Shown here piece by piece: positions 8 through 45,310 of a stretch of DNA of 49,755 nucleotides. The stretch lies in contig JAJYSM010000004.1 in NCBI GenBank assembly GCA_021793575.1, positions 33,778 to 83,532 on the forward strand. The letters are read 5' to 3'. The notes below the pieces were generated by a model. The model saw only the letters and a program-made list of their open reading frames with translations. It did no database searches and was not told the origin of the DNA. The DNA comes from Pseudomonadota bacterium (GTDB taxonomy: Bacteria; Pseudomonadota; Gammaproteobacteria; Xanthomonadales; Rhodanobacteraceae). The position numbers and the translations under genes were made by a program. The number at the start of each line of letters is the position of its first letter. Position 1 is the stretch's first letter.

Positions 8-1696
8 CTAGGGTTCCCAGATCACCTTCTGGCGCAGCGCATGCCACGCTTCGACGTTCGGCAGATAGCGGCTCTCGATCGCATCGCGCTTGATCTTCAG
101 GGTAGGTGTCAGCAGGCCGCTTTCGATCGTCCATGGCTGCTTGACCACAACCAGATAGTCGAGCCGCTCATGATCCTCCAGCGTGGCATTGACCTGCTCC
201 AACAGGTGTTCGAATGACGCTGCAAGTTCTGCGCGCGCAGCTGCCGTGCCGACCAGTTCCCGTTGCGCATCCTCGGACAGCATCAGCAGCGCGAATGGTT
301 GCGGCTGGCCGGGGCCGGTGACGCATGCGCTTTCCAGCTTCGGATGATTGCCCAGCTTGATCTCGATCGGCACGGGCGCGACGTACTTTCCGCGCGCGGT
401 CTTGAACAGCTCCTTGACCCGCCCGGTGATGCGCAACCGCCCCTGCGGGTCGACCTCGCCACGATCGCCGGTCCGGAAAAAACCGTCGGGCAAGGTGTCG
501 CGCGCGGTCAGCTCCGGCATCTTGTAATAGCCCAGCATCTGGCCCGGGCTCTTGACCAGCAGTTCGCCATTGGCATCGATACGCGCCTGCACGCCGAGCT
601 GGCAGGTGCCGACGTAACCGACCCGCACCTGCCCCGGCCGGCAACCATGCGAGAGCGCGAAGTTCTCCGACATGCCGTAGACATCGAGCAGTTCCAGTCC
701 GAGGCTGCGGTACCAGTCGATGATGTCCGACGGCAGTGGCGCCGATCCGGTGACGGCGACACGGGTCTGGTCAAGGCCCAAACCGCGCAGGATCCGGCGC
801 TTGAGCAGACGCGAAAGCAGCGGCACGGCGAACAACAGCTTCTGCTTCGACGACGGCAGTTTTTCGTTGACCGCCTGCTGGAACTTGGTCCACAGCCGCG
901 GCACGGAAAAGAAGATCGTCGGCCGCGCGCGCTGCACGTCGGCGACGAAGCTGGACTGGCTGTTGCTGAAGAACACCCGCAACCCGAAATAGAGTGAGTT
1001 CGTCTCGATCAGCGCGCGCTCGGCAATATGCGCCAGCGGCAGATACGACAGCAGGCGGTCGGCGCTGCTCATGCCGATGGCATCGGCTACCGCGAGGGCC
1101 GGTGACATCATGCTGCCGTAGCTGTGCATCACGCCCTTGGGCTGTCCGGTGCTGCCCGAGGTATAGACGATGGTGCACATCTCGTCGGGTTGCGCATCGT
1201 GTACCGGGTGCAGCGCAGCGTGTTGCGTGATGAGGGTGTCCCACTGCGGGATGTCCCGGCGCGGCCCCAGCGGGAGGCCGATCAGCGGCAACTCGGCAGG
1301 CAGCGCTGCCTCGATCCGCGGCCAGTTGTCGGTGGTGCCGTCCAGCTTGCCGACGAACAGCAGCCTGGCCTCGCAATGATCCAGGATGTAGCGTGCTGAT
1401 TCCGCGCCCAGCGTCGGGTACAGCGGCACGCTGACGTGCCCGGCCAGCATGATCGCCAGATCGGCGATGAGCCAATGGGCGCTGTTCTTTCCAAGCAGGG
1501 CAATCTGGCTGTGCGGCGGAAGCTGCAGCGCATGCAGGTGCGCCGCCATCCGGCGTGCCTGGTCGCCGGCCTGGGCCCAGCTGTAGTCGATCACGCCCCC
1601 GTCCGGTTGCGGCTGGGTCAGCCAGATCGCCTGTGGCTGTTCCTGCTCCCAGGCCAGAAAACGGTGCAACAGCGTCGGGGCAAGTGGGTCAGGCAT
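8..1696 (-). CDS. Long-chain acyl-CoA synthetase (AMP-forming), last gene of a beta-oxidation operon
   Basis: Activates fatty acids to acyl-CoA through an acyl-adenylate, feeding the beta-oxidation genes upstream on the same strand. About 562 residues. The AMP-binding loop YTSGSTGQPKGVMHS begins near residue 178, followed by the adenylation motifs VYGMSEN and FRTGDRGEVD. The C-terminal LTPTLKIKR carries the expected catalytic lysine and is typical of the ACSL (long-chain) branch rather than E. coli FadD. I chose the ATG at 1696. A GTG at 1720 in the same frame would add eight residues, but neither start has a strong ribosome binding site. The gene lies 76 bp after the SCP2 gene and is probably cotranscribed with it. 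The chain-length preference cannot be read from the sequence. Confidence 0.88.
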   Translation of the reverse strand: MPDPLAPTLLHRFLAWEQEQPQAIWLTQPQPDGGVIDYSWAQAGDQARRMAAHLHALQLPPHSQIALLGKNSAHWLIADLAIMLAGHVSVPLYPTLGAESARYILDHCEARLLFVGKLDGTTDNWPRIEAALPAELPLIGLPLGPRRDIPQWDTLITQHAALHPVHDAQPDEMCTIVYTSGSTGQPKGVMHSYGSMMSPALAVADAIGMSSADRLLSYLPLAHIAERALIETNSLYFGLRVFFSNSQSSFVADVQRARPTIFFSVPRLWTKFQQAVNEKLPSSKQKLLFAVPLLSRLLKRRILRGLGLDQTRVAVTGSAPLPSDIIDWYRSLGLELLDVYGMSENFALSHGCRPGQVRVGYVGTCQLGVQARIDANGELLVKSPGQMLGYYKMPELTARDTLPDGFFRTGDRGEVDPQGRLRITGRVKELFKTARGKYVAPVPIEIKLGNHPKLESACVTGPGQPQPFALLMLSEDAQRELVGTAAARAELAASFEHLLEQVNATLEDHERLDYLVVVKQPWTIESGLLTPTLKIKRDAIESRYLPNVEAWHALRQKVIWEP

Positions 1697-33430: not shown

Positions 33431-34693
33431 TCACATGGCAGGCGGCGGATGGCGTACCTGCCCTTCGCCCCGCACCACGAAGCGCTCGACGGTGAGCGAC
33501 TCCGCGCCCATCGGGCCGTAGGCGTGCAGGCGCGTGGTGGAGATGCCGATCTCGGCGCCAAGGCCGAGCTGGCCGCCGTCGGAGAAGCGCGACGAGGCGT
33601 TGATCATCACCACGGCCGAGCGCAGCGCGTGCACGAACTTCTGCGCGGCGCCTTCGTCGGCGGTGGCGATCACTTCGGTGTGGTCGGAGCCGTAGCGCCG
33701 GATGTGCGCGATGGCCGCGTCGAGGTCGTCAACCACGCGCACGGCGAGGATCAGGTCGAGAAACTCGGCGGCGTAGTCGTCCTCGCTGGCCGCGATCATG
33801 GCGGGCACCAGCGCGCGGCTGCGCTCGTCGCCGCGCAGTTCGACGCCGCGCTGGCGCAGCGCGATGGCGGCCTGCGGCAGAAAATTCGCGGCGATATCCG
33901 CATGCACGAGCAGCGTCTCCAGCGCGTTGCACACGCCGGGGCGGGTGGTCTTGCCGTCGATCAGCAGGTTCAGCGCCAGCGCCGGATCGGCGGCGCGATC
34001 CACATACAGATGGCAAACGCCCTTGTAGTGCTTGATCACCGGCACGCGCGCGTGCTCGGCGACGAAGCGGATCAGCCCTTCGCCGCCGCGCGGAATCGCC
34101 AGATCGACGATGTCGGTGAGCTGCAGCAGCTCGACCATCGCCGCGCGGCTGAGGTCGTCGATCAGGGTCAGCGCGGCCGCCGGCAGGCCGCCGGCGCGCA
34201 GCGCGGACTGCAGCGCGGCGGCGATCGCGCGGTTGGAACCCAGCGCCTCCGAACCGCCGCGCAGGATCACGCCGTTGCCGGCGAACAGGCAGAGCGCGGC
34301 GGCATCGGCGGTGACGTTCGGACGCGCCTCGTAGATCATCGCGATCACCCCCAGCGGCACCCGCACGCGCTCGATCGTGAGGCCGTTCGGCCGCGTTTCG
34401 CGCCGCGTCACGCGGCCCACCGGATCGGGCAGGCCGGCCACCTCGCGCAGCGCATCGGCGATCGCCTGCACGCGCGGCACATCCAGCCACAGCCGATCGA
34501 GCAGCGCGCCCTGCACGCCCTTGGCCACGGCCTGCTGCATGTCCTGCGCGTTGGCGGCGAGCACGGCGTCCGCCTGCGCCTCCAGCGCGCCGGCCATGTC
34601 GTGCAGCAGCTTGCGCTTGGCTTCGCCATCGAGCGCCGCAATGGCTTGCGCCGCGTCGCGGCAGGCCAGCGCCTGTTCCCGTATCGCGCTCAT
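33431..34693 (-). CDS. proA: Glutamate-5-semialdehyde dehydrogenase (gamma-glutamyl phosphate reductase)
   Basis: Second enzyme of proline synthesis: reduces gamma-glutamyl phosphate with NADPH. 420 residues. Aldehyde-dehydrogenase-fold motifs are [39 protein letters not shown] and KGVCHLYVD. The catalytic Cys lies in [15 protein letters not shown], and the C-terminal region is [20 protein letters not shown]. The start ATG overlaps the proB stop by 4 bp (ATGA). It is the last gene of the ten-gene arginine/proline operon. Confidence 0.96.
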
Positions 34694-35838
34694 GCGCCGG
34701 TCTCCATGGGGGCCACGGTGGCCATGTCGTCGCGATGCACCACTTCGTCGCCGTAGCTGTAGCCAAGCAGGCTGTGGATGGCGCGGCTGTGCTGCCCGGC
34801 CAGCCGGCGCACCTCGGCGGCGCCGTACTGGCTGAGCCCGCGGGCGATCGCGTGGCCGTCGCCGGCGACGATCTCCACCATGTCGCCGCGATGGAACTCG
34901 CCCGTGACCTGGACGATGCCGCCCGGCAGCAGCGACGCGCGGCCGCCAGTCAGCGCGCGCACGGCGCCGGCGTCGACAACGATGTGCCCGGGCGCGGCCG
35001 GCGCATGGCGCAACCAGTATTTGCGCGCCTGCATGCGGCTGGCCGGCGCGTGCACCAGCGTGCCGCACAGCCGGCCTGTGCCCAGCGCCTGCACGGTGGC
35101 CGCGTCGCTGCCGCAGAACAGCGCGGTGGCGATGCCGGCCGCCGCCGCCTTGGCGGCCGCCTCCAGCTTGGTGCGCATGCCGCCAGTGCCCACCGCGCTG
35201 CCGCTGCCGCCGGCCATCGCGATGATCGCCGGGGTCAGCTCGGCGACCTGCGGGATCGGCACGGCCGCCGCGTCCACGCGCGGATCGGCGGTGTACAGCG
35301 CGTCGATGTCCGAGGCAATCAGCAGCAGGTCGGCGTCGACCAGCGCCGCCACGATCGCCGCCAGGTTGTCGTTGTCGCCGAGCTTCAATTCATCCACGGC
35401 CACCGTGTCGTTCTCGTTGATCACCGGCAGCACGTCCAGCGCCAGCAGCTCGCGCAGGGTAGCGCGCGCATTAAGATAGCGGCGGCGGTTGCGCAGGTCG
35501 TCGTGGGTCAGCAGCACCTGCGCCACCGGCCGCGGCGACAGCGATTGCCACAGCGCGATCATCGGCGCTTGGCCGAGCGCCGCCAGCGCCTGCCGCGCCA
35601 CCAGATCGCTGCCGCCACTCGCACGCTCGCGCAGCAGCGCGCGGCCGGCCGCCACTGCGCCGGACGATACCAGCACCACCTGCCGGCCCTGCGCGTGGCT
35701 GGCCGCGATGAACTGCGCCAGCGCGGCCGCGTGGCGAACCGTGAGCCCACCACCGTCGGCGGCCAGCAGGTTGCTGCCGACCTTGAGCACCGCACGCCGC
35801 CACGGCGGCAAGACCTGATCGGGCAGGCGCGCGTTCAT
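34690..35838 (-). CDS. proB: Glutamate 5-kinase with PUA domain
   Basis: First enzyme of proline synthesis: phosphorylates glutamate. 382 residues: an amino-acid-kinase domain ([54 protein letters not shown]) and a C-terminal PUA domain from about residue 285 ([20 protein letters not shown] onward), as in the E. coli enzyme. The ATG overlaps the argH stop by 4 bp and the stop overlaps proA by 4 bp. The placement downstream of argH makes glutamate-consuming arginine and proline branches part of one transcript. Confidence 0.96.
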
Positions 35839-37130
35839 GCGTCCAGCTGCGCGAGCCGCGCGGCGAGTTCGGGCAGGCGCAGGTCGTACCCCGCACCAGG
35901 CGAGGTGCGCGCCGCGAGGCTGCTCTCCGGCGTGCGCCCCGCCCCGGCCGCTGCCGCCGTCTCGGCCGCCGCGCGGTAGGCGTCACGGAACGGCACGCCG
36001 GCGGCGGCCTGCTCGATCGCCACGTCGGTGGCGTACATCGACGGCTCGATCGCCGCGCGCATCGGCGCCGCGTTCCACTGCAGCCGCGCCAGCAGATCCG
36101 GCACCAGCGCCAGCGCTCCCAGGCCGTGGCGGCAGCCGTGGAACAGCGAGCCCTTGGAAAACTGCAGATCGCGCTGGTAGCCCGATGGCAGCGACAGCAG
36201 CTGCTCGATCTCGCAGCGCGCGGCGGCCACGCTGGCGTAGCTGGCGCGCAGCAGTTCGACCACGTCCGGATTGCGCTTGTTCGGCATGATCGAGCTGCCG
36301 GTGGTGTACTCCGACGGCAGGCTGACAAAGTTGAATTCGGCGGTGGTGAACAGCGACAGATCCCATGCCAGCCGGCGCAGGTCGAGCAGCGCACTGGCGA
36401 TCGCCTCCAGCACCGCCATCTCGAACTTGCCGCGCGACAGCTGCGCGTAGATCGGCGAGATCTGCATCCGCGCGAAACCCAGCGCGGCGGTGGTGTGCGC
36501 GCGATCGAGCGGCAGGTTGACGCCGTAGCCGGCGGCGGTGCCGAGCGGGTTGGCGTCGATCCATTCAGCTGTCTGCTTGGCGCGCCATGCGTTGTCGATG
36601 AAGGCCTCGGCGAAGCCGGCGAACCACATCGCGGTGGACGACACCACCGCGCGCTGCAGATGGGTGTATCCCGGCAGCGGCAGCGCCGGCTGCGCGGCGC
36701 GATCCAGGCACACCTGCGCGATGGCGCGGCAGTGTGTCTGCAAGGTCGCCAGCTGCTGCTTCAGCCACAACCGCGTGGCGACCAGGATCTGGTCGTTGCG
36801 GCTGCGCCCGGTGTGCACGCGGCGGCCGGCATCGCCGAGTCGTTCGGTAAGGCGCGCCTCGATCGCCGAATGGCCGTCCTCGTGGCGCTCGTCCAGCACG
36901 AACGCACCGCTCTGAAAATCCGCGGCCAGCGCATCCAGCTCGCGCTTCAGCGCCACCGCCTCGTCGGCGCTGACCACGCCGATATTGGCCAGCCCTTCCA
37001 CATGCGCCTTGCTGGCGGTGATGTCGTGCAGGAAGAACTCGCGATCCAGCAGCACGTCGTCGCCGGCGAGGAACTGCATGATCTTCGCGTCGATCTGCAC
37101 GCCGGATTTTTGCCAGAGGGGCTGGGTCAT
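35835..37130 (-). CDS. argH: Argininosuccinate lyase
   Basis: Last enzyme of arginine synthesis: cleaves argininosuccinate to arginine and fumarate. 431 residues. Family motifs are [20 protein letters not shown] in the N-terminal third, [20 protein letters not shown], and the signature loop [19 protein letters not shown] with the catalytic Ser. The ATG at 37130 begins [10 protein letters not shown]. The ribosome binding site is weak (AGGATCT). An 85-bp gap to argC is filled by a REP palindrome, the largest intergenic gap in the operon. The 3' end overlaps proB by 4 bp. Confidence 0.96.
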
Positions 37131-37142
37131 GCCAAGAGATCC

Positions 37143-37220
37143 TGTAGGAGCGCACCCTGTGCGCGATGGCCTTGCTGGAAATTCGTGGAAGAACGATCGC
37201 GCACAGGGTGCGCTCCTACA
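37143..37220. repeat. REP-type palindrome, member 2, between argC and argH
   Basis: Perfect 25-bp arms TGTAGGAGCGCACCCTGTGC... (37143-37167) and its complement (37196-37220), with a 28-base loop containing CCTTGCTG. The stop codon of argC (TAG, 37216-37218) is part of the outer arm. The arms, the CGCGATG segment and the CTTGCTG loop show that it belongs to the same family as 8641-8715. It may lower expression of argH and the downstream genes or stabilise upstream mRNA. Confidence 0.88.
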
Positions 37221-38175
37221 ACACGGGAATCGCGGTGGTCTCGTCGACGCCGATGGCACGGTTGATGTTTTGCAGCGCCTGCGTCGCCGCACCCTTCAGC
37301 AGGTTGTCCAGCGTCGCCACGACCACCACGCGCTTGCCGTCGGCCGACATCGCGAAGCCGCCGATTTCGGCGTGATGCCGGTGCGCGATGCGGCTCACCC
37401 ACGGCGCCTCATCAACCACGTTGACCAGCGGCTCGGCGTCATAGGCATGGCGAAAGCGCTGCAAAACTTCTTCGCGCATCGTCTTGCGTGCCAGGTACAA
37501 ATTGGTGGTGACGGTGAGGCCGCGGAAGTGCGGCGCCACGTGCGGCATGAAGTCCACCGGCACGCCGAGATGGCGGCTGGCCTCCTTCTCGTGCAGGTGA
37601 CCGGTGAGCGCGTAGGGCATCAGGTTGTCGCGCAGCTTGTCCGGATCGTTCTTGTCCGACGGCGTGGTGCCGGCGCCGGAATAGCCCGACACGCCGAAGC
37701 ACACCGGCGGCGCGGCCAGCAGGTCTTTCAGCGGGGCGATCGAGAGCTGCATCGCGGTGGCGTAGCAGCCGGGGTTGCTGATGCGCCGCTGGCCATGCCA
37801 GCGCAGGCGGGTCAGTTCCGGCAGGCCGTAATACCAGCGCTCGTCGAAACGATGGTCGGCGGAGAGGTCGACGATCAATGGATCGACGCCGGCCTGATCG
37901 AACGCGGCCACGCAGTCGGCGGCCTTGCCGTTGGGCAGCGCCAGCACCACCACGTCGGCGCCCAGTTGCGGCAGCGCCTCGTGCGCGGGCGCGCTGTAGC
38001 GCAGCTCGCCGCGGTACTCGGCGACGTGCGCATCCACCCGCTGGCCGTCCAGCTCGCGCGAGGAGACGAACGCCAACTCCAGTGCCGGATGCGCCGCGAT
38101 CAGCCGGATCAGTTCGACGCCGGTGTGGCCGCGGGCGCCGACGATGCCGATGAGTTTTTTCTGTACGAAGGTCAT
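37216..38175 (-). CDS. argC: N-acetyl-gamma-glutamyl-phosphate reductase
   Basis: Reduces N-acetylglutamyl phosphate to the semialdehyde with NADPH. 319 residues. The nucleotide-binding start is [20 protein letters not shown]. The catalytic Cys is in [19 protein letters not shown], and the substrate region is [17 protein letters not shown]. The family His lies in a segment near [15 protein letters not shown]. It starts 4 bp after the argAB stop. Its last codons run into the REP element at 37143-37220, which supplies the TAG stop, so the C-terminus was probably altered slightly by the insertion. Confidence 0.95.
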
Positions 38176-38179
38176 GGCA

Positions 38180-39517
38180 TCAATCCAGCAGCGTGGGCTG
38201 GCGCGTGGCGCAGTGCGCGACGCAGCGCTCGATGGTGTGGAAATCGGGCAGGCCGTACCAGAACACCTTCCAGCGCGCCTGCTTGAGACAGCCGTCGGAT
38301 TCGGCGTAGTAGAAATGGTTGACCACGTTGCCGTGGCGCGAGCGCCAGAACAGCTGCGGGTTTTCCTCGCGCATCACCTGCCACACGGCGCGGCCCAGCC
38401 CTTCGCCCTGCGCATCGTCGAGCACCGCGAACTTGTCGAGGTAGGCCAGCCCCTGCTCCCCATCGAGGTGTTCCTCGGTGAGGATCATCGCGGCGCGGTA
38501 GTTTTCGCTGACGTAGACGCGCCGCGGCGTGGTGCGCTCGAAGTAATCCGGCACCAGCGCGCGGCCGAAGCTCGACTCGATCAGCGCGCGCATGCGCTCG
38601 CGGTCGACGCCGTCCCACGCGGTGAACGTGAGCACCTTTTCACCGCGCCGTACCAGCGTGCCCGAGCCCTTGTGGGTGAACAGCTCCTTGGCCAGCTCGG
38701 CCGGGCGGGTGATCGACACCGACGAGGTCAGCGGCAGATCGTTCAGCAGGTCGGCAATCTGCTCCAGCTTCAGGCGCATGCCGCCGTTGATCCACGGCTG
38801 CGCCATCAGGTGCTCGAACTCGGTGCTGAGGTTGATCGAGTCGATCACCCTGCCCTGGTCGTCGAGCAGCCCGCCGGTGCCGGTGAGAAACACGATCTTG
38901 TACGGCTGCAGCACGCGCACCAGCTCGTTGGCGGCGAAGTCGGCGTTGATGTTGAGGATCTGCCCCTCCTCGGTTTCGCCCAGGCTGGCGATCACCGGGA
39001 TCGAGCCGGCGCGCAGGCTGGCCTCGATCGGCGCCAGGTTGATGCGCTGAACCTTGCCGACCAGGCCGTAGACGTCGCGATCGAGATAGCTGGAGGTGAA
39101 CACGCCCGACGGCACCGAGGTGGCGCGCGTGTCCATCGACTGCAGCGCCTCGACCAGCCGCAGGTTCTGCTGCTGGAACACCTTGCGCACGATCGCCAGC
39201 GCCGCCGGCGAGGTGACGCGCAGGCCGTTGACGGTCTGCTTCTGGATGCCGGCGGCAGCCAGCTCCTCGTCCAGCTGCGGGCCGGCGCCGTGCAGCACGA
39301 TCGGCGTCAGCCCCACCTGTTGCAGGAAGGTCAGCGACGAGGTGAGTTCGGGCAGCTCGTCGCGCAGCACCGCGCCACCGACCTTGACCACGGCGAAGCG
39401 CTTCGCGTCGAGTTGCGAAAAGCGCTTGAGGTACTGCTGGATCTCCTTCGCGCTGCCCATGCTTTCCAGCAGGCGCACGATGGTCTGGCGGGTGTTCTTA
39501 TGCTCTGGCACGGTCAT
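38180..39517 (-). CDS. argB: Bifunctional N-acetylglutamate synthase/kinase (xanthomonad NAGS-K type)
   Basis: 445 residues in two parts: an amino-acid-kinase domain ([20 protein letters not shown] near residue 40, [33 protein letters not shown]) and a C-terminal GNAT-like acetyltransferase domain (from about 295, with [16 protein letters not shown] and [20 protein letters not shown]). Such fusions, known from Xanthomonas, make N-acetylglutamate and phosphorylate it, combining the first two arginine steps, with arginine feedback known in the family. Two ATG codons are adjacent (39520, 39517). AAAGG abuts the first, so the second is preferred. It follows the argE' stop by about 12 bp. Confidence 0.93.
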
Positions 39518-39529
39518 CATCCTTTGCGT

Positions 39530-40804
39530 TCATCCCTGGGCGCGAGCGTCAGAAAGCGGTCGTCCCTGGCCGCATTTCTCGACCATGCGATAGACGGTTT
39601 GCGCGTAGCCGGCGAGCTGATCCAGCGCCACCCACTCGTCGGCGCTGTGCGCCTGCGCGATGTCGCCAGGGCCGTAGACGAAGGCGGTATGACCGGCGGC
39701 GGAAAACAGCGCCGCCTCGGTCCAGAAGTCCACCGCATTGCCGACCGGGATCTCCAGCTCGTCGGCCAGATCGCGTGCGGCGAGGCGGCGGCTTTCCGCC
39801 GTGGCGGTGTCGCCGGCCGGCAGCGAGGCGCCGCGAAAGGTTTCGGCAAACTCGGCCGGCGGCGGTTGCACCAGCGTGCGCAGGCGTTCGAGCAGCCGAT
39901 CCGGATCCATCGTCGGCAGCGGGCGAAAGCCGAAGCGCACCTCGGCGTCGGACGCGATCATGTTGGCCTTGATGCCGCCCTCGACGCGGCCGATATTGAA
40001 GCGCAGGCCGGTCAGCCCACCGAAGCGCTCATGCGCCTGCGCCGCCACGAAATCCAGCGCGGCCGAACCCCAGCGCATCACCTGATGCAGCGCGCTGTCG
40101 CCCGGCTGCTGCTCGCCCGAGGCGTGCCCGGCGTGGCCGGCGAAACGCATCAGCACCGACTGGATGCCGCGATGCGCCAGCACCGCCTCGCCCTTGGTGG
40201 GTTCGGCCACGATCACCGCGTCGTACGGATAGCCCCTCTCCCGCTGGGAGAGGGGTTGGGGTGAGGGTTCGGGTGTGCCCGGAAGTCCCGCTTCGCCCGC
40301 ACCCTCATCCGCCCTGCGGGCACCTTCTCCCACAGGGAGAAGGGACTCAAGGAAGCCCGCGATGCAGCGCGGATCGTTCGCCTCTTCGTCGGTGGTGAAC
40401 AGCATCGCCATGTCGCCCTCGCCGGCATGCGCCACCGCGAGCAGCGCCGCCGCGGCGCCCTTGATGTCGCAGGCGCCGAGGCCGATCGCGCGATCGGCGG
40501 TGAGGCGCAGCGTGTGCGGGTCAGCGCTCCATCCCGGCGAATCGGGCACCGTGTCCAGATGCACGTTGAACAGGATCCTCGGCGCGCCGCGAACCGCGTG
40601 CAGGCTCACCGCGCCCGCGCCGTGATCGGTCAGCGTGAACGTGAAGTCGGGCAGCTGCGCGCGCAGGTAGTCGAAGATGCCGCCGGCGCCGATGGCGCGC
40701 GGCGGATTGCGCGTGTCGAAGCCGACCAGCGCGCGCAGGTGCGTCAGCGTGGCGTCGAGCAGCACGGACGAATCCCGGTTTCCCATGGCCGATTCCGCGC
40801 TCAC
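39530..40804 (-). CDS. argE': ArgE-type deacylase, probably N-acetyl-L-citrulline deacetylase, with an in-frame repeat insertion
   Basis: M20-family zinc deacylase of 424 residues. Metal ligands are visible: His82 and Asp84 in [10 protein letters not shown], Asp113 in [10 protein letters not shown], Glu140-Glu141 in TTDEEAND, Glu201 in VAEPTK, and a C-terminal His in AQAHSADEW. Because the operon encodes an acetylornithine carbamoyltransferase, the natural substrate should be N-acetylcitrulline, as in Xanthomonas. Residues 154-191 (between GFLE and [12 protein letters not shown]) are encoded by a palindromic repeat (40232-40345) and are absent from the family pattern as I know it. The start is a GTG overlapping the argG stop by 4 bp, with GGAGGT nine bases upstream. 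An ATG at 40786 is the alternative. Confidence 0.9.
40232..40345. repeat. Palindromic repeat element inserted in frame inside argE'
   Basis: 114 bp (38 codons). The ends are small perfect hairpins CCCCTCTCCC-GCT-GGGAGAGGGG (40233-40255) and CCTTCTCCC-ACA-GGGAGAAGG (40323-40343). Between them, GGGGTGAGGGTTCGGG and a near-complementary CGCACCCTCATCC give a long outer inverted repeat, so two inverted copies flank a short centre. The translation ([12 protein letters not shown]) is the kind of peptide produced when a common intergenic proteobacterial repeat is read through. No frameshift or stop results. Confidence 0.88.
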
Positions 40805-41994
40805 GAACGGTTGACCTCCGCCCACAGCGTGCTGCTCATGCCGAACAGCTTGATGAAGCCCTCGGCCTCGGCCACGCCCCAGTCGGCCGACTGCGCATAC
40901 ACCGCGCCCTTGGCGTGGAGGATATGCGGCGAACGCACTTCGACCGCGGTGACTTGCGCCCCGCTGGTTTCCAGCACCACCTCGCCGTTGACGCAGCGCT
41001 GGCTGGCGGCCAGAAAGGCTTCGAGGTCGGTCTTCAGCGGATCGTGGTAGAAGCCCTCGTACACCAGTTCCACCCACTTGCGCGCCACCTCGGGCTTGAA
41101 GCGGTTCTGCTGTTTGGTCAGCACGGCTTCCTCCAGTGCGCGATGCGCGGTGAGCAGCGCCACGATGCCGGGCGCCTCGTACACGATGCGGCCCTTCAGA
41201 CCGATGGTGGTGTCGCCGGTATACATGCCGCGACCGACGCCGTAGGCCGCGAACAGCTGGTTGAGCCGGACCAGCAGCTGCTCGCCGGCCATCTTTTCGC
41301 CATCGATCGACACCGCCTCGCCCTGTGCGAAGCCCAGCGTCACGCTGAGCTTTTCAGACGGCCATTCGGCACGCGGCTTGCACCATCCGCGCGCGCCCTC
41401 GCCCGGCGTCTTCCAGTGGTCGATCTCGCCACCGGACATGGTCACGCCCAGCACGTTCTCGTTGATGGTGTAACTCTTCTGCTTGGCCCGCACTTCAAAA
41501 CCGCGTGCTTCCAGATAGGCCTGCTCGTAGGCGCGTGTCTGGGTGTGCTCTTTCTGGATCTCGCGGATCGGCGCCACGATCTGGTAATCGCCGAGCGACT
41601 TCGCCGCCAGATCGAAGCGCACCTGGTCGTTGCCCATGCCGGTGCAGCCGTGCGCGATGACCCGGGTGCCCAGCTCGGCGGCGCGCTGCAGCGCGGCCTC
41701 CACGATCAGGTAGCGGTCGGACACCAGCAGCGGGTACTGGCCCTGGTAGCCCTCGCCCGCCCACACGAACGGCTTGACGAAGCCCTGCCAGATCGCCGGG
41801 CCGCCATCGACGGTGACATGCGATGCCACGCCCAGCTCGGCCGCGCGCTGCTCGATGAAGGCCCGCTCATCGGCGTCGACGCCGCCGGTATCGGCGAACA
41901 CGGTATGCACGGCCCAGCCACGCTTCTGCAGCCAGGGCACGCAGAAGCTGGTGTCGAGGCCGCCGGAAAAAGCGAGGACGATGTCTTGGCTCAT
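40801..41994 (-). CDS. argG: Argininosuccinate synthase
   Basis: Condenses citrulline and aspartate with ATP. 397 residues. The N-type ATP pyrophosphatase loop [20 protein letters not shown] is at residues 9-28. [20 protein letters not shown] and [19 protein letters not shown] follow, then the C-terminal multimerisation region. ATG at 41994. The ribosome binding site is poor, consistent with translation in an operon. A 41-bp gap separates it from osmC upstream, and its stop overlaps the argE' GTG by 4 bp. In this pathway it uses citrulline released by the ArgE'-type deacylase. Confidence 0.96.
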
Positions 41995-42035
41995 GGCTTG
42001 CGGATCCAGAAAGAGGAAGGAAAAGGCGGAAAGGG

Positions 42036-42515
42036 TCAGACCGATGCGACGACGATGTGCGGCTCGCAGCGCACGGGAAAATTCACGGAGTTGGCGATGA
42101 AGCAGGCATGGTGGGCATCGGCATGCAGCGCTTCGGCCCTGGCCGCATCGCCGGCGGCGCTCACCGTCACGCGTGGACGCAGCAGCACGTCGACGAAGTG
42201 GCCGCCGTGCGCGTCGGCCTCCATGCGGCCTTCGGCGGCATCGCTGTAAGCCGTCACCACCACGCCCGCCACCGCGGCCAGGTGCAGGTAGGCGAGCATG
42301 TGGCAACTCGACAGCGCCGCGACCAGCAGATCCTCCGGATTGTGCCGGCCGGCATCGCCTCGGAACGCCGGGTCGGAGGAGCCGGCCAGCACGGGCTTGC
42401 CCGCTACGCGGATCTCGTGGCTGCGCTCGTAGCCGCGGTAGCTCTGCGTGCCGCTGCCGCAGTTGCCGGTCCACTCCACGTCCACGCGGTAGTGGTGCCG
42501 ATGGGTGCCGGTCAT
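42036..42515 (-). CDS. OsmC/Ohr-family protein
   Basis: 159-residue OsmC-family protein. Two conserved cysteines are present, in [15 protein letters not shown] and [14 protein letters not shown], the redox pair used by OsmC/Ohr proteins to reduce organic hydroperoxides. The N-terminal [20 protein letters not shown] is family-like. The ATG overlaps the paiB-like stop by 4 bp (ATGA). It lies within the arginine operon without an obvious role in arginine synthesis. It may share regulation only. Confidence 0.88.
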
Positions 42516-43135
42516 GGGTGCGCGTCCTCCTGTCGGGCTATCAGCCGGGCCAGCTCCGCGTCGCCGTCGCCATCGCGTTCGCGCAGGCCGCGAATGACGC
42601 CGGCCCGATTGGCTGCGGGGTGGTTCTGGCTGAGCTTGAACTTGCCCTCGATGCGCTCGATCGCGATGGCGATGCCGACGATCGCGCGCAGCGACTTGTC
42701 GATGTGATCCGCCGGTGCATCGGACACCTTCCACGGCTGCGGCTGCCCCGCTTCGTGATGATCGGTGAGCGTCTCCAGCAGCCGGCGCAGCCATGCCGCG
42801 TCGTCGATCACGCGCAGCCGGCCATGCACGTGCACCACGGCGTAGTTCCAGGTCGGCACCTCGCGGCCGGTCTCGTGCTTGCTCGGGTACCAGTTCGGAG
42901 TGATATAGCCGTCCGGGCCACGGAAAACGAGCAGCACCTCGGCGCCGTCCATCCGCGCCAGCTCATTGCCCCGGGCGACATGCCCGTGCAGCACGCCGTC
43001 CACCAGTTCGAACGGCAGATGGTTCGCCGTCAGCCCGGCGGCGGTGTGGGTCACCAGGGTGGCGAAGGGGTATTCAAGCATCAAGCCGTGCAAGGCTTCG
43101 GTGCGCGTCTCGCGAAAATAGCTCGGCGTGTACAT
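42512..43135 (-). CDS. FMN-binding PaiB-family protein
   Basis: 207-residue protein of the PaiB/FMN-binding split-barrel family (some members called negative transcriptional regulators). Typical segments are [60 protein letters not shown] and the C-terminal [18 protein letters not shown]. It begins 13 bp after the argF' stop and overlaps the osmC-family gene by 4 bp, so it is part of the arginine operon. The molecular function of the family is not well defined. A direct role in arginine metabolism is not evident. Confidence 0.88.
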
Positions 43136-43148
43136 GGCGGCGTCTGGC

Positions 43149-44156
43149 TCAGCGACCGGCCAGCAGCGAGACCATCACCGCCTTCTGCACGTGCAGGCGG
43201 TTCTCGGCCTCGTCGATGGCGATGCAGGCGGGCGAATCCATCACCGCATCGGTGGCCTTGATGTTCCGCCGCAGCGGCAGGCAGTGGCTGAACAGGCCGT
43301 GGTGTGTCAGCGCCATCTTCGCTTCGTCGACGATGAAGTGCCGGTGCGCCTCGCGGATCGGCTTTTCCCGCTCCCACCGGCCGAAGTACGGCAGCGCACC
43401 CCAGCTCTTGGCGTAGACCACGTCGGCACCGCGATAGGCCTCCTCGATGTTGTGGCTGACCTTCAGCGAGCCGCCGTTCTGCTCCGCGTTCAGACGGCCG
43501 GACGCCATGTAGCGCTCGTCCAGCACGTAGTCGGGCGTGGGGCACAGCAGGGTCACGTCCATGCCGAGCTTGGTGGCGATCAGCAGCGCGGAGTTGGCCA
43601 CCGCGGTGTTCAGCGGCTTGGGGTGGTAGGTCCAGGTCAGCACGTACTTCCTGTTCTGCAGGCTGCCCAGATGCTCCTGCAGCGCCAGCGCGTGGGCCAG
43701 CTCCTGGCAGGGATGGGTGATCGTCTCCATGTTGATCACCGGCACCGTGGCGTGCGCGGCGAACGCCTTGATCACGCTGTCCTCGCGATCCACCGACCAG
43801 TCCTGGAACTTCGGAAACGCGCGCACCGCGATCAGGTCGACGTAGCGCGAGAGCACGCGCGCCACCTCGGCGATGTGCTCCTCGGTATCGCCGTCCATCA
43901 CCGAACCCAGCTCGAACTCGATTGGCCACGCGTCCTTGCCCGGCGCCAGCACGATCGCGTGGGCGCCGAGCTGGAACGCGCCCAGCTCGAAGCTGGTACG
44001 CGTGCGCATCGACGGGTTGAAGAACAGCAGCGCGATCGACTTGCCGGCCAGCTGCTGGCCGCGCGGCGAGCGCTTGAAGGCGGCGGCCTGCTGCAGCAGC
44101 GCGTCGATCTCGGCGCGGCTGTAATCCTGGGTCGTAATGAAATGCCGAAGGGTCAT
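43149..44156 (-). CDS. argF': N-acetylornithine carbamoyltransferase
   Basis: 335-residue carbamoyltransferase. The carbamoyl-phosphate motif NPSMRTRTSFELGAFQLGAH is followed by WPIEFELGSVMDGDTEEHIA, TWTYHPKPLNTAVANSAL and SHCLPLRRNIKATDAVMDSP. The extended DWSVDRED and TWTYHPKPLNTAV segments match the xanthomonad acetylornithine carbamoyltransferase (AOTCase) rather than ordinary ornithine carbamoyltransferase, so the product is N-acetylcitrulline. The frame is open further upstream, but the ATG at 44156 starts the family sequence. It is the first structural gene of the operon, preceded by a leader that looks like an attenuator (44241-44409). Confidence 0.94.
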   Translation of the reverse strand: MTLRHFITTQDYSRAEIDALLQQAAAFKRSPRGQQLAGKSIALLFFNPSMRTRTSFELGAFQLGAHAIVLAPGKDAWPIEFELGSVMDGDTEEHIAEVARVLSRYVDLIAVRAFPKFQDWSVDREDSVIKAFAAHATVPVINMETITHPCQELAHALALQEHLGSLQNRKYVLTWTYHPKPLNTAVANSALLIATKLGMDVTLLCPTPDYVLDERYMASGRLNAEQNGGSLKVSHNIEEAYRGADVVYAKSWGALPYFGRWEREKPIREAHRHFIVDEAKMALTHHGLFSHCLPLRRNIKATDAVMDSPACIAIDEAENRLHVQKAVMVSLLAGR

Positions 44157-44182
44157 GGGTGAAATCGCTCTTGGTGAATAGT

Positions 44183-44225
44183 CCGGCCATGGATGGCCGG
44201 TTTTGCCATCTGCGGATGGATCCGC
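44183..44225. promoter_or_regulatory. Two 2-base-loop palindromes in the argF' leader
   Basis: CCGGCCAT-GG-ATGGCCGG (44183-44200) and GCGGAT-GG-ATCCGC (44212-44225) are both perfect and both centred on GG. They lie 27-69 bp before the argF' ATG, downstream of the terminator. They could be protein-binding sites or mRNA hairpins near the ribosome binding site. They do not resemble the AT-rich ARG box of E. coli. Confidence 0.45.
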
Positions 44226-44240
44226 GTGAAATACAGCCCA

Positions 44241-44272
44241 AAACAAAAAACCCGGCACGCAGGCCGGGTTTT
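44241..44272 (-). terminator. Terminator hairpin of the argF' leader (attenuator)
   Basis: On the leftward transcript: AAAACCCGGC, 6-base loop, GCCGGGTTTT, then a U-rich tract (TTTTTTGTTTT). It ends about 85 bp before the argF' start. The gene upstream in the same direction has its own hairpin at 44495-44526, so this terminator acts inside the arg leader. Its 5' arm can instead pair with GGCCGGGT at 44307-44314. Confidence 0.82.
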
Positions 44273-44304
44273 GTCGTCGATTCACATGAAACGCGTGCGA
44301 CAGC

Positions 44305-44409
44305 CTACCCGGCCGAATGTCGATACAGCGGTCGGCGCGCACGCGACGTCATCCCGGCAGCCGCGCGGGCGCTGGTGAGTACGGTGGCGGTATAGACGGC
44401 TGCTGACAT
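44305..44409 (-). CDS. Candidate arginine leader peptide
   Basis: 34-codon open frame beginning MSAAVYTATVLTSARAAAGM and ending TSRARRPLYRHSAG. Arginine is at positions 15, 23, 25, 26 and 30, four of them in the last 12 residues (codons CGT, CGC, CGA, CGA). GGAA lies seven bases before the ATG. The stop codon is 33 bases before the terminator hairpin at 44241-44272. The arginine codons overlap CGCGTGCG (44338-44345), which pairs with CGCACGCG (44292-44299). The stop region overlaps GGCCGGGT, which pairs with the terminator arm. This is the layout of ribosome-mediated attenuation. Translation is inferred. Confidence 0.6.
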   Translation of the reverse strand: MSAAVYTATVLTSARAAAGMTSRARRPLYRHSAG

Positions 44410-44433
44410 GCAAAATTCCAGTGGCGAGCGCGC

Positions 44434-44462
44434 ATGATGGCGAGAATTGCGCTGCCATGCAA
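44434..44462 (-). promoter_or_regulatory. Weak candidate promoter of the arg operon
   Basis: Leftward TTGCAT (44457-44462), a 17-bp spacer, then CATCAT (44434-44439). Matches to consensus are only 3/6 and 4/6. The position would start transcription about 20 bases before the leader-peptide ATG. Confidence 0.25.
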
Positions 44463-44494
44463 CAGGCGGAAGGGCAGGCGGAAGGATGGGGGAC

Positions 44495-44526
44495 ACAGGA
44501 TCGCCGCCCGCAGGCGGCGATCCTGT
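44495..44526 (-). terminator. Terminator hairpin of the glycine-zipper gene
   Basis: Perfect 14-bp stem ACAGGATCGCCGCC / GGCGGCGATCCTGT with a CGCA loop, 35 bp after the stop codon at 44561. No clear T-run follows. Confidence 0.7.
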
Positions 44527-44560
44527 ATTGCGACGGATGACGGGTGGCGCGATCAGTTGC

Positions 44561-45088
44561 TCAGTCGGCTGGCAGCACCTGCACCCGCACGCGCAGGCGC
44601 TCGCCAGGGTCGTAGCTCAGCCGCGAGTTGTAGACCTCGCCGCGGTAGCGGTATTCCACGTCGTAGCCGACAATGCGGCGCTGCTCGTTCACTTGATCGA
44701 CCTGGCGACAGCGGGTCTGGGTGGATTCGTAGCTGCCGCCGTGGTCGGAGACGCGGTTGCCCACCGCGCCGCCGGCCACCGCGCCGACCACGGTGGCGGC
44801 CGTGCGGCCGTCGCCCTTGCCGACCGTGTGGCCCAGCACGCCGCCGATCACCGCGCCCAGCACGGTGCCCGCAGTGCTGTTGCCGGGGTCGCGACGGACC
44901 ACCGGCTGGTCGTAGCACTCCTGCTGCGGCACCTCGGTGCGCGTGACGCCCTGAACCGGGTCCACCCGCAGCACGTCGGCCCAGCCGTAATGGGCGTTGT
45001 CGTCACTGTTCGGGTAACGCATGCCTTGCGCACTGACGCCCGTGGCCGTCAGGGCCAGCACCAGCGCGGTAAGCCAAAACCTGGTCAT
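44561..45088 (-). CDS. Glycine-zipper (2TM) envelope protein
   Basis: 175 residues with a signal peptide (TRFWLTALVLALTATGVSAQ). The centre is a glycine-zipper 2TM segment, AGTVLGAVIGGVLGHTVG, then AATVVGAVAGGAVGNRVSD, as in Rickettsia 17-kDa surface antigen-like proteins. The C-terminal part is a beta-rich domain with CRQVDQVNEQRRIVGYDVEY and RYRGEVYNSRLSYDPGERLR. Two cysteines (in QECYDQP and TRCRQV) might form a disulfide. There is no lipobox. The ATG at 45088 has GGAGA five bases upstream. It is probably an outer-membrane or periplasmic protein of unknown role. Confidence 0.86.
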   Translation of the reverse strand: MTRFWLTALVLALTATGVSAQGMRYPNSDDNAHYGWADVLRVDPVQGVTRTEVPQQECYDQPVVRRDPGNSTAGTVLGAVIGGVLGHTVGKGDGRTAATVVGAVAGGAVGNRVSDHGGSYESTQTRCRQVDQVNEQRRIVGYDVEYRYRGEVYNSRLSYDPGERLRVRVQVLPAD

Positions 45089-45310
45089 TGCGATCTCCAC
45101 TCGTGATCATCGGTGCGCCAGCGCGCCTGCCGGTGCATTCCAGCAAATTGACGCTGAATACACGCTTAGAATTCGCTGAGGCACCGCGGTCCGCCGGCGT
45201 CCGCTCACGCGTGGTTTAGGAAGCCGGCCTTGTTAAGATGCCCGCCTCACTCAGGATGCCTGGCTGACCGTGCCGAGCCGGCGCACGGCCCCGGGCTGTG
45301 GACTGCCACG

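Follow-up and report, generated by a model that had tools for sequence, protein, structure and literature searches.

How are the arginine genes regulated in a bacterium whose genome yields no match to the arginine repressor family (ArgR, PF01316)? This question is raised by a stretch of 49,755 nucleotides (hereafter the window) from a member of the Rhodanobacteraceae, in which a same-strand cluster is headed by argF' (43149..44156, minus strand), encoding N-acetylornithine carbamoyltransferase (NF003384, 599 bits against a cut-off of 288). The remainder of the cluster (33434..43135, minus strand) comprises PaiB-like and OsmC/Ohr-like genes, argG, argE', an argA/B fusion, argC, argH, proB and proA, and argF' to proBA may be co-transcribed. 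NCBIfam profiles identified the fused acetylglutamate kinase (argA/B) together with argG, argE', argC and argH, the last of which scored just under its cut-off (279.3 versus 279.5). The second gene of the cluster (42512-43135, minus strand) had no match in NCBIfam and is taken by us to resemble PaiB; it is placed between argF' and argG together with the OsmC/Ohr-like gene, whose score was also under the cut-off. The argE' protein (39530-40768, minus strand) matched its family in two stretches, the best of which aligned residues 177-397 to profile positions 142-362, and about 35 extra residues precede this stretch, possibly an in-frame insertion for which a direct-repeat scan gave no explanation. 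A dispersed repeat that had also been suspected in the arg cluster was not borne out; only four short direct-repeat families were found there. The region of interest lies upstream, between argF' and a gene matching NF008437 ('hypothetical protein', 44561-45100). An Rfam scan of the window detected no riboswitch or T-box, with no family reaching its gathering score, and matches to rnk_pseudo and anti-hemB within the region were under their cut-offs and taken as chance. Comparison of the same region with phage records gave no match.

We propose, with a probability of about 0.88, that this region is a ribosome-mediated transcription attenuator of the leader-peptide type that controls the argF'-argG-argE'-argAB-argC-argH-proBA cluster. 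A preliminary description of the DNA had read it as an attenuator of the trp/his type, which is supported here, as Arg codons and a mutually exclusive antiterminator and terminator before the arg-pro operon were kept in relatives. The frame named in that description, 34 codons followed by TAG (44305..44409, minus strand; MSAAVYTATVLTSARAAAGMTSRARRPLYRHSAG), was confirmed, and its four Arg codons within the last 12 codons correspond to residues 23, 25, 26 and 30. The last of these had been counted as part of the sensor and is without conservation in relatives. The predicted sensor is instead RARR (44343-44332), located 20 nt 5' of the antiterminator arm within an invariant core, MTSRARR (44332..44352, minus strand), whose control Arg codons are CGT (44343-44341), CGC (44337-44335) and CGA (44334-44332).

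Frame, core, codon choice, spacing and both helices could each be followed through related genomes. Families of the order carry the labels f1 to f12 assigned by the search tool; f1 corresponds to Rhodanobacteraceae, as follows from its named loci (including Rhodanobacter, Dyella, Frateuria, Luteibacter and Tahibacter), and f2 was inferred to be Xanthomonadaceae from the Xoo5 matches described below. The window, the best 80 f1 relatives by ArgF' search, 20 f2 loci among the matches listed and nine f3/f4 loci together provided 110 loci, and MTSRARR was unchanged in the argF' upstream regions of all 110. Conservation of the Arg-rich short frame in relatives, which the preliminary description had put forward as a test, was thereby found. 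The C-terminal half of the leader was present in 80/80 f1 relatives, although some start with GTG, one (L021) has lost the upstream half to apparent adapter sequence, and five (L060, L064, L067, L071 and L078) have an altered N-terminal half yet keep AR[AM]A[AS]GMTSRARR. Pairwise comparison of the core codons across 100 distinct f1-f2 sequences, which are related so that events are not independent, gave 8955 synonymous and 0 nonsynonymous differences, and this restriction to synonymous change points to translation of the leader. When 398 genomes of the order were searched for the core as a DNA pattern, it was found in 263 of the 266 genomes of f1-f4 (not every match being confirmed to lie before argF'); it was missing from G055, G076 and G292, occurred twice in G199, G224, G260 and G282, and was present once in the genome of the window, at the leader described here. 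Outside f1-f4 it matched one genome of 132 (G114, on a contig other than that of its argF'), and the reversed control pattern matched two of the 398 genomes.

Upstream of the frame, a likely leader promoter consists of a -35-like TTGCAT (44457..44462, minus strand) and a -10-like CATCAT (44434..44439, minus strand) separated by a 17-nt spacer, and a GGAA (44416..44419, minus strand) 6 nt 5' of the leader ATG may serve as Shine-Dalgarno sequence. A strict consensus promoter scan of the window's leader found none. Of 80 distinct f1 sequences, 76 have an in-frame leader ATG, and 67 of these carry the pattern TTGnnn-16..18-nAYnnT 5' of it, with 24-25 nt between the end of the -10 element and the ATG in 59 of the 67.

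Downstream of the core, the pairing coordinates given in the preliminary description proved right, and all elements lie on the minus strand. Segment 2 (GGCCGGGT, 44307..44314), the 5' arm of the antiterminator, ends within the stop codon, and segment 4 (ACCCGGCC, 44262..44269) is common to the antiterminator and an intrinsic terminator with a U-tract (44245..44272), formed by a stem of 10 pairs (44272-44247, with segment 5, GCCGGGT, at 44256-44250) and a T-tract. This terminator appeared as two overlapping sites in a scan, where 0.3 were expected in shuffles of 44100-44700. The claim that antiterminator and terminator exclude each other holds in relatives, in which both are conserved with covariation. 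Pairing was counted in 44 sequences, a diverse selection from the 100 distinct ones of f1-f2 without the nine f3-f4 loci. The seven inner pairs of the 2:4 helix (antiterminator) were 97.4% paired, with both sides changed in 15 cells, and the 4:5 helix (terminator) was 98.4% paired with 22 such cells, compared with at most 56% pairing when the partners were slid by 1-3 columns as a control. The three arms change together, from GCCGGG/CCCGGC/GCCGGG in f1 to GCTGGG/CCCAGC/GCTGGG in f2. As this covariation is mostly one change shared by a clade, independent cases matter, and one is provided by the matched set GCCAGGT/ACCTGGT/GCCAGGT of an f9 locus (L140). Segments 2 and 4 fit in only 6/8 places in 3/3 f3 and 3/6 f4 loci, and likewise in two other f9 loci (L136 and L138).

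A further pairing in the preliminary description fared differently. The sequence over the core Arg codons, CGCGTGCG (44338-44345), can pair in the window with CGCACGCG (44292-44299, minus strand), named there as segment 3, but this helix is not conserved in relatives. Its aligned form was 72% paired, no better than shuffles (118/500). At least 8 contiguous pairs joining the core to the 30 nt that follow the stop codon were found in 39/80 f1 and 0/20 f2 loci, and pairing of this kind beat shuffles at p 0.05 in only 15 f1 loci and one f2 locus. A protector pairing of CGCGTGCG with CGCACGCG would thus be no more than a local trait within part of the family, and no conserved protector hairpin of the 1:2 type was found in the f1-f2 loci. 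Such a hairpin is not needed by every known attenuator, so its lack was not taken as excluding one here.

These elements suggest the following course of events, in which we infer leader translation, ribosome stalling, termination in vivo and the signal itself. A ribosome would translate the 34-codon frame as RNA polymerase is still transcribing the leader. A shortage of charged tRNA-Arg of the CGT/CGC/CGA isoacceptor would stall this ribosome at R-A-R-R, mostly at the slow CGA, with its front edge about 6-8 nt short of segment 2, an estimate based on the general size of the ribosome footprint. Segment 2 could then pair with freshly made segment 4, no terminator would form and the operon would be read. 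With plentiful arginine, the ribosome would reach the stop codon that overlaps segment 2 and mask this arm, segment 4 would pair with segment 5, and transcription would end at the U-tract. The spacing agrees with this course, as the antiterminator arm is free at the stall site and masked at the stop codon when the same footprint size is applied. Folds were computed for 9 sequences, and those of the window also agreed: covering the RARR codons and cutting the RNA after segment 4 gave the antiterminator (-24.1 kcal/mol), and the RNA beyond a ribosome placed at the stop codon gave the terminator. When no segment was covered, the terminator was within the window's minimum-energy fold, and the antiterminator must consequently form first and win kinetically. 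Two marks of an attenuator are present as well, namely cognate control codons before the first pathway gene and an intrinsic terminator between leader and argF'. A response to charged tRNA-Arg is suggested by this anatomy and by codon choice.

More distant families were examined in the argF' upstream regions of 40 of 42 f3-f12 genomes (all except G021 and G029; f5 and f8-f12 were sampled from genomes with an ArgF' match), and ten of the twelve sampled families showed the leader arrangement. In f5 and f7-f11, MTSRARR is gone and Arg-rich runs stand in its place. An ATG frame whose last Arg codon lies 10-30 nt before segment 2, just 5' of the antiterminator arm, was detected in 25 of 29 f5-f11 loci versus 1.3 ± 1.1 (maximum 5) in 200 dinucleotide shuffles. 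The same test applied to other amino acids gave at most 3 loci, the next best being Ala with 3. As its terminator pattern was derived from f1-f2 sequences, the test is not independent evidence for the terminator. Three of the four failing loci (L113, L121 and L137) have no such terminator, and in the fourth (L123) the Arg run lies in a frame with GTG rather than ATG start. Leader and terminator arrangement were absent from L113 (f6), L121 and L137 (f10), and L142 and L143 (f12), and in L104 (f4) and L134 (f10) the hairpin scan found no terminator and only looser patterns listed one. These results bear on the possibility that the terminator belongs to the upstream gene and merely adjoins an Arg-rich frame that arose by chance. 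GC-rich DNA does give Arg-rich frames, and the leader as a whole has an ordinary folding energy (z 0.41), but the Arg-run counts against shuffles, the covarying helices and the solely synonymous change of the core leave this explanation a negligible probability.

The distance between sensor and antiterminator arm was mostly kept as well. From the last control codon to segment 2 there are 20 nt in 67/81 f1 and 17/20 f2 loci, 21 nt in 3/3 f3 loci and 17-19 nt in 5/6 f4 loci. Among 26 distant leaders, 17 have 17-21 nt and the other nine 11-30 nt. This holds although segment 2 is read in different frames (as AG-stop or GWV) and the position of the stop codon varies.

Codon choice at the sensor is equally distinctive. 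The final Arg of the core is encoded by CGA in 107/110 f1-f4 loci, whereas the share of CGA among Arg codons is 1.6% in argF' of 80 f1 loci and 5.2% in nine genes of the window. In the 26 distant leaders, in which Arg codons were counted over the first ten residues of each tail, 105/110 were CGT, CGC or CGA compared with 238/367 in the argF' genes of 20 of the 26 genomes (p 6e-12), and CGA alone made up 34/110 versus 25/367 (p 7e-10). All three codons are read by one inosine-bearing tRNA. In Salmonella, according to the accessible part of the report, the same tRNA genes read CGT, CGC and CGA, and Arg-Arg pairs with CGA led to high de-attenuation in a his-leader assay (PMC4046918). Theory, in the part of the source available, expects control codons to come from the isoacceptor that is first to lose its charge (PMC1183508). 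Both would fit a sensor driven by codons. CGA could also act without any sensing of amino acids: the terminator might be coupled to translation such that any slowing of the ribosome, for instance under general stress, relieves termination, and CGA alone may set basal read-through, as the Salmonella his leader suggests (PMC4046918, accessible part). We consider this very improbable, as Arg is the sole amino acid enriched at the site and the genes make arginine.

The strict conservation of the core invites another explanation, in which the MTSRARR peptide, with or without a bound metabolite, arrests the ribosome from within the exit tunnel and is itself the sensor. In its favor, the non-Arg residues of the core (Met, Thr, Ser and Ala) are no less invariant across four families than its Arg codons. 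Distant families, however, keep Arg runs alone among unrelated neighbors, the enrichment of CGA acts at the codon level, and leaders of ilv genes in 5/5 f2 loci also have a strongly conserved core. Such conservation is therefore not unique to the arg leader, which weakens arrest as an explanation, and we judge it improbable. The ilv leaders came from a control set of 30 ilvC loci, with leaders in 5/5 f2 and 2/2 f7 loci and none in 5 f1 loci by a looser scan. Upstream of ilvC, the f2 loci L207, L211, L212, L213 and L219 and the f7 loci L194 and L195 have Ile/Leu/Val-rich leader frames with T-tracts downstream; the f2 core resembles LVLVLITxPTGAGR, and an ilv attenuator is likely. Around hisG, a His-run frame was found in 0/30 loci (L164-L193, some of which end at contig ends), so that this order may lack a classical his attenuator upstream of hisG.

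Part of this RNA already has a name. In a permissive Rfam scan, the window's leader matched RF02242 ('Xoo5, Xanthomonadaceae sRNA') with 25.2 bits (E 0.0031), under the cut-off of 50. When 20 loci were scanned, among them 13 of the 20 f2 loci, the cut-off was passed by 11/13 f2 loci (53-143 bits; L085 and L099 did not pass), all before argF', and 0/7 f1, f3 and f4 loci reached 50 bits. In all 11 matches, the first position of the model falls 2 nt 5' of the leader ATG and its last falls 19-21 nt past the stop codon, which leaves 33-42 nt to the end of the terminator. Judged by these matches, the 'sRNA Xoo5' of Rfam is the arg leader RNA. The main text of the original report describes sRNA-Xoo5 of X. 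oryzae as cloned twice, with its 5' end mapped by RACE and its 3' end taken from clones, as 124 nt in size, which equals the length of the Rfam model, and as one of five Hfq-independent sRNAs in the authors' count (PMC3039613). As the lengths agree, the start of the model is probably the mapped RACE start. Northern blots in the same text gave bands of about 130 and 100 nt, both in early growth and the short one alone later (PMC3039613). These bands are shorter than the leader of L095 would be if it ended at the U-tract (about 160 nt). Both they and the 3' end of Xoo5 before the terminator speak against the attenuator as proposed, although that end may reflect processing or truncation in cloning rather than the predicted termination point. 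Transcription start and a detectable short transcript of the Xanthomonas leader thus have experimental support via Xoo5. The Xanthomonas counterpart is already in print as sRNA-Xoo5 and not as a leader; the main text of that paper contains none of the words 'arginine', 'leader', 'argF' and 'ornithine' (PMC3039613). In f2 loci such as L083, L084 and L095, 2 nt separate the beginning of the Xoo5 model from the leader ATG, and translation there is probably nearly leaderless.

These records could be taken to mean that the RNA is a non-coding regulator acting in trans and that the frame is incidental: Xoo5 was detected by cloning, 5' RACE and Northern blotting in X. oryzae (PMC3039613, main text), and Rfam lists it as an sRNA. 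Against this, the core changes only synonymously, the model starts 2 nt before an ATG, the RNA is placed before argF' in all 110 f1-f4 loci, and Arg runs replace the core in distant families, so that we hold this explanation to be extremely improbable. A combination of functions is somewhat less remote and still unlikely: in the four families with the fixed core, nascent MTSRARR might prime a stop at the single CGA, which would report the supply of arginyl-tRNA, and released Xoo5 might act in trans.

The distribution of ArgR within the order complements that of the attenuator. PF01316 was matched in 8 of 200 genomes, all of them f12, and in three f12 genomes in which both places are known, the ArgR gene is encoded on the strand opposite to argF, at a distance of about 1.2 kb. 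ArgF of f12 is 39-41% identical to that of the window (three genomes), and no leader was found before argF in the two f12 loci read. ArgR confined to f12, together with two f12 loci without leader, would most simply mean that repressor and attenuator were exchanged for one another during the evolution of the order, in either direction. Within this order, the attenuator appears to stand in for ArgR. In one f6 genome (G005, locus L113), argF' has neither a leader nor an upstream terminator, and this genome, which may or may not have been among the 200 searched, is absent from the ArgR matches.

If correct, the proposed attenuator would place a classical leader-peptide mechanism for arginine in most sampled families of one gammaproteobacterial order, explain the control of arginine synthesis in genomes without detectable ArgR, and identify a 'non-coding sRNA' of unexplained function in Rfam as the arg operon's leader. 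The leaders that have been rewritten in nature, mostly with the same spacing and with CGA enrichment, would also offer material for finding out which codons render an attenuator sensitive. The mechanism as such is already known, whereas arginine specificity was not found in print among the open-licence papers in the matches listed, a scope outside which the 2004 survey of proteobacterial attenuators falls; we regard the attenuator as very probably real and widespread.

Leader-peptide attenuators of the trp, his, thr, ilv, leu and phe type exist in Proteobacteria, and the arg leader resembles them in its frame of control codons, an arm common to antiterminator and terminator, and a stop codon so placed that a ribosome there would mask the antiterminator arm. 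It differs from the trp/his type in its specificity for arginine, in an antiterminator arm that overlaps the stop codon (f1 and f2), in the lack of a conserved protector hairpin, and in a control run that is a fixed RARR in f1-f4 rather than a long run. sRNA-Xoo5 (RF02242) is the same RNA as the f2 arg leader but was described as a non-coding sRNA. ArgR also provides arginine-dependent control of arg genes and is, unlike the leader RNA, a DNA-binding protein. The SpeFL/ORF34 leader of enterobacterial speF is likewise a leader peptide before a gene of arginine-derived metabolism, in this case an ornithine-sensing arrest peptide that acts through Rho on a polyamine gene. The fungal arginine attenuator peptide, also a leader peptide controlling an arginine gene, is a eukaryotic arrest peptide that responds to high arginine and acts on translation. 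The carA leader of Pseudomonas, as presented in the accessible part of its report, similarly encodes a leader peptide and may act by attenuation upstream of an arginine/pyrimidine gene, but it concerns carAB, ties attenuation to pyrimidines and belongs to other genes and another group of bacteria (PMC4997734).
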